NCBI GenBank assembly: GCA_903850885.1
Contig: CAINMU010000046.1
Location: forward strand, 1 to 48,484
Source of the DNA: an uncultured Opitutia bacterium
Lineage (GTDB): Bacteria; Verrucomicrobiota; Verrucomicrobiia; Opitutales; UBA953
Length of the DNA: 48,484 bases
Direction of reading: 5' to 3'
Positions within the stretch are counted from its first letter, which is position 1. Every line of letters starts with the position of its first letter. The notes under the pieces are model-generated. The model ran no database searches. It was not told where the DNA came from and saw nothing but the letters and a program-made list of their open reading frames with translations. Below are positions 256-31,976 of this stretch, piece by piece. A program made the position numbers and the translations under genes.

Positions 256-508
256 CAGGGGGCATGCTGGCAAGGTGACACGTGGGCACGGGGAAGCGTA
301 GAGGCTCTAATGGGTAGGGTCAGCACTGCGTGCTGACCTAGGGTCCGATTCAACTAGGTCGGCACGCAGTGCCAACCCTACCTCGATACAGCTATGTCGT
401 GACGCGGTCCCGTCCCTACCCATTGCATCCCTTGTCAACTCGCCAACTGGTCAACCGGTCAACTTATTTGCCCCTTGTCACCGTGTCACCTTGCCCACGT
501 GCCCCCTG
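256..508. repeat. Compound intergenic repeat with 38-nt imperfect terminal inverted repeats
   Basis: This fills nearly all of the 311-bp spacer between the M42 and rhodanese genes. The left arm 256-293 and the right arm 471-508 are inverted copies, matching at 31 of 38 positions by eye. Inside, 309-319 (AATGGGTAGGG) and 414-424 are perfect 11-nt inverted copies. Within those sits a two-hairpin core (313-382). A tract of units resembling GGTCAACY lies at about 436-465. Each module recurs near 10.2-10.7 kb, and the core also near 30.6 kb. A separate hairpin (GCGAAGGC, loop AAA) lies just outside the left arm at about 239-257. No coding potential was recognised. Confidence 0.8.
313..382. repeat. 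Two-hairpin core element, copy 1
   Basis: The outer stem is GGTAG 313-317 with CTACC 378-382. Hairpin 1 (318-338) has left arm GGTCAGCAC, loop TGC and a perfect 9-bp stem. Hairpin 2 (357-377) has left arm GGTCGGCAC, loop GCA and a 9-bp stem with one mismatch. The 18-nt linker between them begins TAG and ends CTA. Confidence 0.75.
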
Positions 509-10377: not shown

Positions 10378-10504
10378 GGTAGGGGGGCGTGATCACCATC
10401 ACGTCCGTTCGCTAGGCCGTATGCGAATCTCGATTGGGCTTGGCTAAGACCCGACGACTTCCCGCTTCGGTTTCGAACGGATGCGACGTCGTCGCATCCC
10501 TACC
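10378..10504. repeat. Two-hairpin core element, copy 2 (long linker)
   Basis: The outer stem is GGTAG 10378-10382 with CTACC 10500-10504, extendable to TGGGTAG/CTACCCA. Hairpin 1 (10385-10406) has left arm GGGCGTGAT, loop CACC and one G-T wobble. Hairpin 2 (10479-10499) has left arm GGATGCGAC, loop GTC and a perfect stem. The linker is closed by a third helix, GTTCG 10407-10411 with CGAAC 10474-10478, making a cloverleaf-like fold. Confidence 0.72.
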
Positions 10505-10514
10505 CAAGGCAGGC

Positions 10515-10609
10515 GATACAGAAACAAGGGGAGACCGGAATGTTAGTGGGAGAAATATGCCCCCAGCCAATCATCCGGTCTCCGGTTTCCCATTGAGTTC
10601 CTCTGTATC
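10515..10609. repeat. Inverted-repeat module containing an ACCGGAGACCGG block
   Basis: The ends are GATACAG 10515-10521 and CTGTATC 10603-10609. The right half (10557-10591) is an inverted, near-identical copy of the block at 30368-30405 and 30543-30578. GGGAGACCGGAA near 10529-10540 is a partial opposite-strand copy, so the module folds back on itself. The following TTTCCCGC also follows the related segment near 30692. Confidence 0.7.
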
Positions 10610-10633: not shown

Positions 10634-10664
10634 GCTAGGGCAGCACGCGGTGCTGCCCCTACCC
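10634..10664. repeat. Single-hairpin variant of the core element
   Basis: The hairpin 10638-10658 has left arm GGGCAGCAC, loop GCG and a perfect 9-bp stem. It is followed by CTACCC at 10659-10664; GCTAG precedes instead of GGTAG. Only one hairpin is present. It is followed by GATGCATCCC and by GGYCAACY-type units up to about 10718, as in the 0.4-kb copy. Confidence 0.7.
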
Positions 10665-16069: not shown

Positions 16070-16092
16070 GGGGTTGGGATAGGGGTAGGGGG
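16070..16092 (+). other. G-quadruplex-type cluster in a divergent promoter region
   Basis: Four G-runs (16070-16073, 16076-16078, 16082-16085, 16088-16092) with 2-3 nt loops on the plus strand, just upstream of the minus-strand NHL gene. A related C-run tract with CCCTAT units lies at about 16176-16200, just upstream of the plus-strand DUF1080 gene, in inverted orientation. Confidence 0.5.
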
Positions 16093-16208
16093 TGGCGCGA
16101 CGGCTTGCAAATGGAATAGGGCATTCGGGACCCCTTTTCGGCATCGCTCTTTTATTGTATCTTCTGAACGGCCCCCTATCCGTATCCCTATCCCTAAACC
16201 TAAAGCAT

Positions 16209-16814
16209 ATGAAAACCCTCCGTTTCCTCGCGGCTCTCGCCGCTCTCATCGTCTCGGCCTCCGCCGCTGAGCTTAAGTTCGAGTCAGCCTTCAACGGCAA
16301 AAACCTCAACGGTTGGCAGAACGGCGAAAACAACGAGTTCTGGAAGGCCGTCGACGGCGTGCTGGTCGGCGAAAATAACGCCGCAAAGAAAGGCAATATG
16401 CTCTACACGGAGAAAACTTACCAAGACGCCATCATCGAGTGCGAAGTGCGCTTCTCCGGAGAAATCGACAGCGGTATCATGATGCGGAAAGATGAAAAGG
16501 GGAAGAAAGACATGCAGATGCAGATCGGTGTCTCCCGCAGCCTGAAGAAAGACATGACCTGCGCCTTCTACGTCGGCAAGTATCCTGAAGCCGGCTGGGC
16601 TCCGAAAGTCTCCACCCTCTGGAAGAACAACGAATGGAACAAGATCCGCTTCCAGGCCAAAGCCGACACCTATACCGTCTGGCTGAATGGCGAGCAGGTT
16701 TCGAATTACGTCGACGCCGGCTACCCTAAGGCGGCCCCCATCGGCCTCCAGATTCACCCAGGGTTGGCGATGAAGGTCGAGTATCGCAACATCTCGGTCG
16801 CCGAAATCAAGTAA
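16209..16814 (+). CDS. DUF1080 (3-keto-disaccharide hydrolase-like) domain protein, secreted
   Basis: A 201-residue protein with a signal peptide (about 1-19, VSASA) and one DUF1080 domain. Family landmarks are FNGKNLNGWQ near the start, SGIMMR, YVGKYPEAGW, NEWNKIRFQAKADTYTVWLNGEQVSNY, and GLQIHPGLAMKVEYRNISV at the end. The domain is a concanavalin-like beta-sandwich; members act on, or bind, sugar derivatives, and the family name refers to 3-keto-disaccharide hydrolysis. No catalytic claim can be made from this sequence. DUF1080 proteins are strongly expanded in Verrucomicrobiota and Planctomycetota. The ATG at 16209 opens the signal peptide directly and is preceded by a C-run leader, not a Shine-Dalgarno motif. 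A bidirectional terminator follows. Confidence 0.88.
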   Translation: MKTLRFLAALAALIVSASAAELKFESAFNGKNLNGWQNGENNEFWKAVDGVLVGENNAAKKGNMLYTEKTYQDAIIECEVRFSGEIDSGIMMRKDEKGKKDMQMQIGVSRSLKKDMTCAFYVGKYPEAGWAPKVSTLWKNNEWNKIRFQAKADTYTVWLNGEQVSNYVDAGYPKAAPIGLQIHPGLAMKVEYRNISVAEIK

Positions 16815-16829
16815 GTCTTAGCTCAATTT

Positions 16830-16871
16830 AAACAAAGCAGGGCGGGAGCAATCCCGCCCTCCTTTGTTTTT
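16830..16871. terminator. Bidirectional terminator between convergent genes
   Basis: AAACAAAG (16830-16837) pairs with CTTTGTTT (16862-16869) and AGGGCGGGA (16839-16847) with TCCCGCCCT (16852-16860), with one C-C mismatch between them and loop GCAA. TTTTT follows on the plus strand. It serves the plus-strand DUF1080 gene and probably the minus-strand lipoprotein gene. Confidence 0.88.
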
Positions 16872-30319: not shown

Positions 30320-30347
30320 GGGCTTAGGGTAGGGATAGGGGCAGGGG
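30320..30347 (+). other. G-run tract downstream of the operon
   Basis: Five G-runs (30320-30322, 30327-30329, 30332-30334, 30338-30341, 30344-30347) with 2-4 nt loops, in TAGGG-type spacing like the 16.07-kb tract. It lies 9 bp past the stop of the cytochrome-WD40 gene. Confidence 0.5.
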
Positions 30348-30367
30348 TAGGTAATCAATCGCTCAAA

Positions 30368-30405
30368 GGGAAACCGGAGACCGGATGATTGCTGGGGGGC
30401 ATTTT
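30368..30405 (+). repeat. ACCGGAGACCGG block, copy a
   Basis: Contains ACCGGAGACCGGATGATTG followed by a G-run and GCATTTT. It is nearly identical to 30543-30578 and to the inverted copy at 10557-10591. Confidence 0.8.
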
Positions 30406-30519
30406 CAGGTCTCAGGTCTCGGCCATCGGGTGTCTGGTTTAGGTATTCAGGTTCGGGTGCAGGTCCCGGGGCTGGCTCCCGAACCTGTTCCTGTACCTGT
30501 AGCCGAGACCTGAAACCTG
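30406..30519. repeat. Long nested inverted repeat
   Basis: The outer arms 30406-30423 (CAGGTCTCAGGTCTCGGC) and 30502-30519 match at 17 of 18 positions as inverted copies. The inner arms 30448-30457 (CAGGTTCGGG) and 30478-30487 are a perfect 10-bp pair. It could act as a terminator-like or protective hairpin for the operon ending at 30310. Confidence 0.75.
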
Positions 30520-30542
30520 GAAATCAGTGGTACGGATAGATA

Positions 30543-30670
30543 CAAACCGGAGACCGGATGATTGGCTGGGGCATTTTTAGGTAGGGCTGACTGGCCCGGT
30601 CAGCCGCGGTTGAGCGGGCCGCTCAACCCTACCCAATGCACCGCAGAACTCGTTACGGTTTCCGGTCTCC
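30543..30670. repeat. Two-hairpin core element, copy 3, framed by ACCGGAGACCGG arms
   Basis: The framing arms GGAGACCGG 30549-30557 and CCGGTCTCC 30662-30670 are inverted copies. The core outer stem is GGTAG 30580-30584 with CTACC 30629-30633. Hairpin 1 (30585-30605) has left arm GGCTGACTG, loop GCC and one G-T wobble. Hairpin 2 (30608-30628) has left arm GGTTGAGCG, loop GGC and a perfect stem. The linker is only 2 nt. This is the most compact copy. Confidence 0.78.
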
Positions 30671-30746
30671 CTTGTTGTTCGATATCTTTCCCGCAGAGAA
30701 GGGTGGTTTGACTCACCCCAGACCTGGCCCTAGCCCTTTCTCCCCC

Positions 30747-31976
30747 ATGCTCTCTCGTCGTCGTTTCCTGGAATCTACCTTTGTCGCCGCCATCGCCGCC
30801 TCGCTGGGCGCCGCCGAAGGCAAGCGGGCGCCGCGCGTCGTTCTACGCTCTTCCTGGCAGACCGTAAACATTGGTGATATCGCTCATACGCCCGGCATGC
30901 TGGCTTTACTGGAGAAATATTTTCCGGAAGCCGTGATCACCCTCTGGCCTTCTAACGTCGATAATGGCGTGAAGGAAATGCTGGCGGTGCGCTTCCCGAA
31001 ATTGCAATTCGTCGGACCCAAGCCCGACGTCGCCAAGCTTTACGCCGAGAACGATTTCCTCCTGCACGGTTCCGGGCCCTCGTTGGTCGGTGAAAAACAG
31101 ATCGCCCAATGGCGTAAGCAAGGGCCGAAGCCCTATGGCGTGCTCGGCATCACGCAGGGCAAGCCAGCGGCCGAGACCGTTGAGATCCTCAACGGTGCCA
31201 CCTTCGTCTACTTCCGGGATTCAGTCTCGCTCGAGGCCGCCAAGGCTGGCGGCGTGAAGTGTCCCGTGATGGAGTTTGGTCCGGATGGTGCATTCGCGAC
31301 CGACATGCGTAACGAGGAGAAAGCCGAGGACTTCCTGCACGGATGGGGCCTCGAGCGTGGTAAGTTCCTCTGCTGCATTCCGCGCTATCGCAGCACGCCT
31401 TATTGGACGATTCATAAGGAGCGCGCTTTTGATCCTGTTAAACAAAAGCGGAACGATGAATTAAAGGAGCATGACCACGCGCAGCTCCGAGCCGCGATTA
31501 TCCAAATCGTGAGGCAGACTGACCTCAAGGTGCTCATCTGCCCCGAGGACCGCACCCAGATGATTTTAGGTAAGGAGATCCTTTTCGACAAGCTGCCCGA
31601 TGATGTAAAAGACCGCGTCGTGTGGCGTCAGGATTACTGGCTGACCGACGAAGCGCTGAGCGTCTACGTCCGCAGTGCGGGCCTTTTCGGCAACGAGATG
31701 CACTCGCCCATCATGTGCGTCGGCAATGGTATCCCCGCGATCGTCTGCCGCTGGGCTGAACAAACTTCCAAAGGGAATATGTGGAAAGACATCGGCCTCT
31801 CCGAGTGGCTTTTCGACCTCGATGATGAGCCGCAACTCGCGGGCATCGTCCCGGCCGTGCTCGCCATGGCCAAGGATCCGGTTTCGGCAAAAGCGAAGGT
31901 CGCTCGTGCCCAAGCCATTTTGCACGAGCGTCAGGCCGCGGCCCTTGGTCAGGTCCGAAAAGCTTGCTTGCAGTGA
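30747..31976 (+). CDS. Polysaccharide pyruvyl transferase family protein, Tat-exported
   Basis: A 409-residue protein with a twin-arginine signal (SRRRFLES, then AAIAASLGAA). The body matches the polysaccharide pyruvyl transferase fold: SWQTVNIGDIAHTPGML near residue 37 is the N-terminal 'NxGD' motif, DFLLHGSGPS the second-strand motif, VYFRDSVSLE the family's 'R-D-x-x-S' motif, and GNEMHSPIMCVGNGIPAIV the C-terminal donor-site motif with His. Classical members add pyruvate ketals to polysaccharides in the cytoplasm, so a Tat-exported version is unusual and its donor is unclear. The ATG at 30747 opens the signal; the reading from 30636 begins inside the repeat element and is rejected. It is transcribed alone, between the repeat spacer and the RND pump cluster. 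Confidence 0.86.
   Translation: MLSRRRFLESTFVAAIAASLGAAEGKRAPRVVLRSSWQTVNIGDIAHTPGMLALLEKYFPEAVITLWPSNVDNGVKEMLAVRFPKLQFVGPKPDVAKLYAENDFLLHGSGPSLVGEKQIAQWRKQGPKPYGVLGITQGKPAAETVEILNGATFVYFRDSVSLEAAKAGGVKCPVMEFGPDGAFATDMRNEEKAEDFLHGWGLERGKFLCCIPRYRSTPYWTIHKERAFDPVKQKRNDELKEHDHAQLRAAIIQIVRQTDLKVLICPEDRTQMILGKEILFDKLPDDVKDRVVWRQDYWLTDEALSVYVRSAGLFGNEMHSPIMCVGNGIPAIVCRWAEQTSKGNMWKDIGLSEWLFDLDDEPQLAGIVPAVLAMAKDPVSAKAKVARAQAILHERQAAALGQVRKACLQ

Follow-up and report, generated by a model that had tools for sequence, protein, structure and literature searches.

At 30580 to 30633 of the window (i.e., the whole 48,484-nt stretch of DNA analysed here), two hairpins lie between GGTAG and CTACC (GGTAG GGCTGACTGGCCCGGTCAGCC GC GGTTGAGCGGGCCGCTCAACC CTACC). 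A sequence-only reading had noted this arrangement, which we confirmed, and had assigned it to a family with compensatory stem changes that it did not recognise as a described repeat. The locus raises the question of what these elements are and how their stems change in sequence and still pair. Judged by their sequences, the two-hairpin elements are GTAG-type REP head-to-head doublets (REPIN/BIME) with cognate RAYTs, and the doublets are probably copied by a RAYT (REP-associated tyrosine transposase) of the same bacterium.

Layout, copy number and covariation

Both hairpins at 30580-30633 have a perfect or near-perfect 9-bp stem and a 3-nt loop, and they are spaced 2 nt apart (Table 1). Using the pattern GGTAGGG-N20-50-CCCTACC, we identified 49 occurrences in the 2.34-Mb genome and none of the reversed control pattern, and a covariance model identified 167 single units genome-wide; the proposed family has many copies in the genome rather than one or two. 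The unit layout of GGTAG, a 9-bp stem and a 3- to 4-nt loop falls within the definition of GTAG-type REPs, in which a short-looped stem of 6-13 bp follows a GTAG tag after 0-2 nt. In a set of 67 doublets, some of which join REPs from neighbouring doublets, a spacing of 2 nt was the commonest (31 doublets), and no doublet paired two identical stems. Of 55 genomes from the genus, 47 contain doublets, and doublets with different stems occur in other families of the order (58 in one genome).

The covariance model, which was trained on the genome-wide copies and then run on the window, identified six units at E <= 3e-4, i.e., the four of the doublets at 30580 and 313 and those at 10479 and 10638, together with weaker matches at 395 and 10378. 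The six significant units in the window are all located in intergenic spacers, three in number. A rule-based scan of the window found the same six tagged hairpins and one extra match, compared to 0.15 per Markov-simulated window; the extra match (31175-31202) is within a gene and likely a false positive. Seven hairpins in three spacers had originally been counted; six tagged hairpins, plus degenerate ones, are located in three spacers, and the linkers of 2, 18 and 72 nt had been given correctly.

Table 1. Coordinates of REP units and of the palindrome arms surrounding the 30580 doublet in the window
Feature	Position	Strand	Basis or remarks
REP doublet, hairpins GGTCAGCACtgcGTGCTGACC + GGTTGGCACtgcGTGCCGACC, linker 18 nt	313..382		units 313-338(+), 357-382(-)
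Degenerate third REP unit adjoining 313-382	395..420	-	covariance model, 12.1 bits
Degenerate REP unit: GGTAG, 2 additional nt, hairpin GGGCGTGATcaccATCACGTCC	10378..10406	+	covariance model, weaker match
REP unit, hairpin GGATGCGACgacGTCGCATCC, 72 nt from 10378-10406	10479..10504	-	resembles REPs at RAYTs L021, L036
Single REP unit, hairpin GGGCAGCACCGCGTGCTGCCC	10638..10663	-	identical to REPs bracketing C21 RAYT (L081), same genome
Left arm of unrelated long palindromic repeat, CCGGAGACCGGATGATTGGCTGGGG	30547..30571	+	doublet within repeat's loop
REP unit, GGTAG tag + hairpin GGCTGACTG-gcc-CGGTCAGCC	30580..30605	+	covariance model; type of the hairpins at RAYT gene G000:C73
GC linker, 2 nt, separating the two REPs	30606..30607		
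REP unit, opposite orientation, GGTAG tag + hairpin GGTTGAGCG-gcc-CGCTCAACC	30608..30633	-	covariance model
Right arm of same host palindrome, CGGTTTCCGGTCTCCC	30656..30671	+	

Among 34 distinct units, 98.6% of the stem cells were paired versus 73.5% after shuffling, and 74 stem cells were double-changed versus 20.2 in shuffles. Double changes occurred in seven of the nine stem pairs (covariation score of 0.656 versus 0.183 shuffled), and shifting the partner by one column reduced pairing to 49% or below; the controls for these counts, which kinship among sequences inflates, were shuffling and sliding. In 50 fully paired units, stem pairs 1-2 (GG/CC) were nearly invariant, while stem pairs 3-9 each displayed three or four Watson-Crick types. 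These data bear out the compensatory stem changes. That the arms differ and yet pair also held up, while the sole mismatch originally tallied (C.A on the + strand of 357-382) is a G.T wobble on the tagged strand. Because related sequences inflate covariation counts, we compared RAYT-linked REPs as well.

RAYT genes and their flanking REPs

The genome contains three Y1 transposase genes, on contigs C73, C149 and C21. Because no RAYT gene is located inside the window, these genes were invisible to the sequence-only reading. The 155-aa C73 protein scored 86.1 bits against NCBIfam REP_Tyr_transpos, above the cut-off of 80, while the C149 and C21 proteins scored just below it (75.8 and 71.6 bits, respectively). 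The closest solved structure for the C73 and C149 proteins is TnpA-REP (4er8). Named proteins closely related to that of C73 come from Opitutia/Opitutae/Verrucomicrobia metagenome bins, so that this bacterium very likely belongs to the phylum of Opitutus terrae (Verrucomicrobia). The proteins have the features by which RAYTs are recognised, i.e., an HUH motif, a single catalytic Tyr and membership of an IS200-related family. In a comparison set covering the genus and named relatives, with 43 distinct proteins with adjacent REPs, HxH (74/76), Tyr127, Asn131 and Trp106-Gln107/Arg116 were conserved in 42-43 of the 43 RAYTs; the last of these residues align with W94, Q95 and R104 of E. coli TnpA-REP, which contact GTAG.

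Each of the three RAYT genes lies between GGTAG hairpins of its own type, and its stop codon falls within the downstream REP or directly adjoins it. The C73 gene sits between GGTAG-GGTTGACC... and ...GGCTGACC...-CTACC, its TGA stop falls within the downstream hairpin, and a complete 30580-type doublet is located immediately upstream, i.e., the GGTTGA/GGCTGA hairpin type of the 30580 element brackets one of the RAYTs of the genome. The C149 gene also terminates within a hairpin (GGATGACC), and the C21 gene has on both sides the hairpin present in the window at 10638-10663. The REPs flanking the C73 and C21 genes are in inverted orientation; those closest to the C149 gene on its two sides share one orientation, and a doublet is located farther upstream. 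REPs of their own class flank not only these three genes but also almost every homologue of 140-210 aa in the genus. The hairpins at 313-382 match REPs flanking the RAYTs L033, L087 and L089 of sister species, and the hairpin at 10479 resembles those beside L021 and L036, also from sister species; this genome yielded no cognate RAYT for either element. In sister genomes, no REPs were detected beside the diverged homologues L043, L044 and L049 (~310 aa) and L050 (a 175-aa frame).

Among the 43 RAYTs, RAYT distance correlated with REP-stem distance (Mantel r of 0.71, a value reached in 0 of 5000 permutations): the mean REP distance was 0.04 for RAYTs <30% apart and 0.50 for RAYTs 60-70% apart. 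At a distance of 40%, the RAYTs form 16 clades, each with its own stem and loop, and individual genomes have up to five RAYT matches. Across 55 genomes, the number of short RAYTs correlated with that of doublets (rho of 0.55, p of 1.6e-5), a species correlation that is inflated by shared ancestry, while the relation was weak for the ~310-aa homologues (rho of 0.24, p of 0.07). As an absolute predictor of REP presence, the RAYT was rejected: a short RAYT went undetected in 26 genomes, of which 20 nonetheless hold doublets. REPs may persist without a short RAYT, or RAYTs may have been missed, as the genomes are mostly metagenome bins in which apparent RAYT absence may reflect incompleteness.

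Likeness to described REP systems

In the features tested, the elements agree with GTAG-type REP doublets, which have been known since 2010-2013 (PMC2817692, PMC3116915, PMC3733652), and the initial impression that they are not a described repeat does not stand. The association of REPs with RAYTs (PMC2817692) and REP doublets as mobile units (PMC3116915) have been described previously, and the GTAG REP super-family of Di Nocera et al. 2013 (PMC3733652) includes Opitutus terrae (Verrucomicrobia); within the literature searched, we found nothing on Opitutus REPs beyond that study. There, O. terrae GTAG-17 was reported to form head-to-head dimers 1-2 bp apart, with hetero-dimers whose preference was left unexplained, and GTAG REPs were reported to have complementary stem changes and to overlap the transposase gene. 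The elements described here share with GTAG-17 very likely the phylum, and in the described layout a short perfect stem with a GTAG tag outside it, a tiny loop, the head-to-head dimer with a 1-2 bp spacer, complementary stem changes and REP-bracketed RAYTs; O. terrae is of a different genus. As a class, the elements are therefore already described, including in this relative, and ordinary. What differs from O. terrae is that genomes here have up to five RAYT matches and that the 16 RAYT/REP clades essentially belong to one genus.

The REPINs of Pseudomonas fluorescens SBW25 (Bertels and Rainey 2011, PMC3116915) are likewise inverted-repeat REP doublets that replicate as a unit, each group being linked to one RAYT, but the commonest doublets here have 2 nt between the hairpins and non-identical stems. 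The Stenotrophomonas maltophilia REPtron (group 3 TnpA-REP; Corneloup et al. 2021, PMC8266576) has a comparable perfect 8-9 bp palindrome, 3-nt loop, GTAG tag and HUH/Tyr enzyme with its own REPs; it differs in sequence, and the enzyme here is known from its gene sequence. The E. coli BIME (Y/Z2 REPs, TnpA-REP 4er8) resembles the present elements in its alternating inverted REPs and homologous enzyme, but E. coli REPs have a bulged stem, whereas the REPs here have a perfect one.

What is new is that 16 RAYT/REP pairings occur in what is essentially a single genus. Studies of RAYT recognition have so far used three enzymes in vitro (PMC8266576), and this Opitutia-like genus offers a natural data set of ~16 RAYT clades, often several per genome and all differing in REP stem and loop, from which recognition rules could be read as covariation between enzyme and hairpin. 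The lack of identical-stem doublets in the set of 67 bears on the hetero-dimer preference raised in PMC3733652.

The tagged strand and the insertion sites

On the tag strand, the non-Watson-Crick pairs among distinct units comprised 47 G.T and 13 A.C pairs; counted as distinct cluster/position events, these were 22 and 7, respectively (p of 0.008). A folded single tagged strand, i.e., the substrate of TnpA-REP, gives a reason for the G.T excess; duplex DNA gives none, and neither does RNA read through head-to-head doublets. The wobble bias in these sequences points to folded ssDNA. Of the original reading, selection that preserves the hairpin as its sequence changes is supported, as is a role at the DNA level.

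The wobble bias also bears on a rival explanation, in which what chiefly maintains the elements is an RNA function in transcripts (protection of 3' ends, processing or attenuation) and mobility is secondary. This explanation fits with the 30580 doublet being located in a 436-nt spacer flanked by two same-strand genes, and Di Nocera et al. argue for transcription of many REPs and for a possible role of REPs as RNA elements (PMC3733652). It also fits with the predicted RNA fold of 30580-30633, in which one long imperfect hairpin is the best structure (-39.4 versus -33.5 for the junction), while with DNA parameters, the two-hairpin form is favoured (-19.1 kcal/mol). The three-way junction originally put forward is accordingly one possible fold, plausible in DNA, but not the one favoured by RNA parameters. 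We consider a primary RNA function improbable. Because the RNA of a doublet shows one tagged and one untagged hairpin, selection on RNA predicts no overall tagged-strand preference for G.U over A.C, but the preference is present; one sister species lacks the doublet in the same spacer; the GGTAG tag is kept although it is located outside the stem; and RAYT-specific stems are not predicted. A search of the window against Rfam gave no family match above the gathering score. That the elements are intrinsic terminators, acting bidirectionally between genes, is more improbable still: the spacers hold GC-rich hairpins, but no T-run follows the 30580 element (right flank CAATGCACC), and the conserved GGTAG/CTACC tag and two-hairpin layout are foreign to terminators.

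In light of the sequence comparisons, the REPIN is very probably a mobile, non-autonomous element that is spread by a RAYT encoded elsewhere in the genome and has stems fitted to that RAYT. It comprises two GTAG-tagged REP hairpins, head to head and 2 nt apart. By analogy with published TnpA-REP biochemistry, on which RAYT binding, cleavage and the ssDNA intermediate are modelled, the RAYT (a Y1, HUH single-strand transposase) would bind the GGTAG-tagged strand when this is folded and single-stranded, e.g., in the lagging-strand template, and would cut and rejoin it beside the REP, by which copies would spread across intergenic DNA. The stems would drift by compensatory changes because stem and loop must suit the cognate RAYT and the stem must pair, and separate RAYT lineages would come to have separate REP sets.

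The spacer preceding the gene at 30747-31973 could be compared across many relatives. The orthologous spacer has the same doublet in G002, G010, G028, G042 and G052; in G032, it has the same flanking palindrome, lacks the doublet and has an unrelated REP pair farther along; and in G012 and G036, a different repeat block is in the place of the doublet. The host palindrome (CCGGAGACCGGATGATTGGCTGGGG...CCGGTTTCC) has 17 copies in this genome, of which several are empty and others hold different REP types at almost the same point. Among 48 host-palindrome copies from five genomes, some of them neighbours on one locus, 11 have a REP 5-10 nt into the loop, 17 have other content and 20 are empty. Judged from these comparisons, the filled and empty orthologous and paralogous sites are insertion footprints of a mobile element, and host repeat and doublet may sometimes have moved together. 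A survey of doublet flanks, many of which are shared links inside REP clusters, gave only a weak insertion target motif: the first outward base is never G, and the flanks are T/C-rich.

At least four REP stem types occur inside the host palindrome. It is conceivable, although we regard it as rather doubtful, that the RAYT-driven elements of the genus target hairpin loops. If so, folded single strands would be both substrate and target, and one small repeat population would feed on another. That apparent insertions recur in the loop of this host palindrome is, like the tag-strand wobble bias, a new observation.

The host palindrome, GGGAAACCGGAGACCGGATGATTGGCTGGGG ... CCGGTTTCCGGTCTCCC, is located in the window at 30547-30671 and at 10525-10590 (- strand); in addition to the 17 copies here, four sister genomes have 11-47, and its loop often holds REP doublets or another block. 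The window holds further repeats. A nested inverted repeat is located at 30401-30524 (block AGGTCTCAGGTCTCGGCC...CAGGTTCGGGTGCAGGTCCC/GGGGCTGGCTCCCGAACCTG...GCCGAGACCTGAAACCTG), and blocks resembling it occupy the loop of the 30547-30671 palindrome in sister genomes. Text-like short iterations (GGTAGGGGTAGGG / CCCTATCCCTATCCCTA) are present at 16075-16090, 16174-16203, 30320-30352 and 30720-30745, directly ahead of gene starts or past gene ends, and differ between relatives. Finally, a strong 18-bp inverted repeat at 16830-16869 (AAACAAAGCAGGGCGGGA/TCCCGCCCTCCTTTGTTT), 3' of a gene whose end is at 16814, has the look of a common intrinsic terminator.
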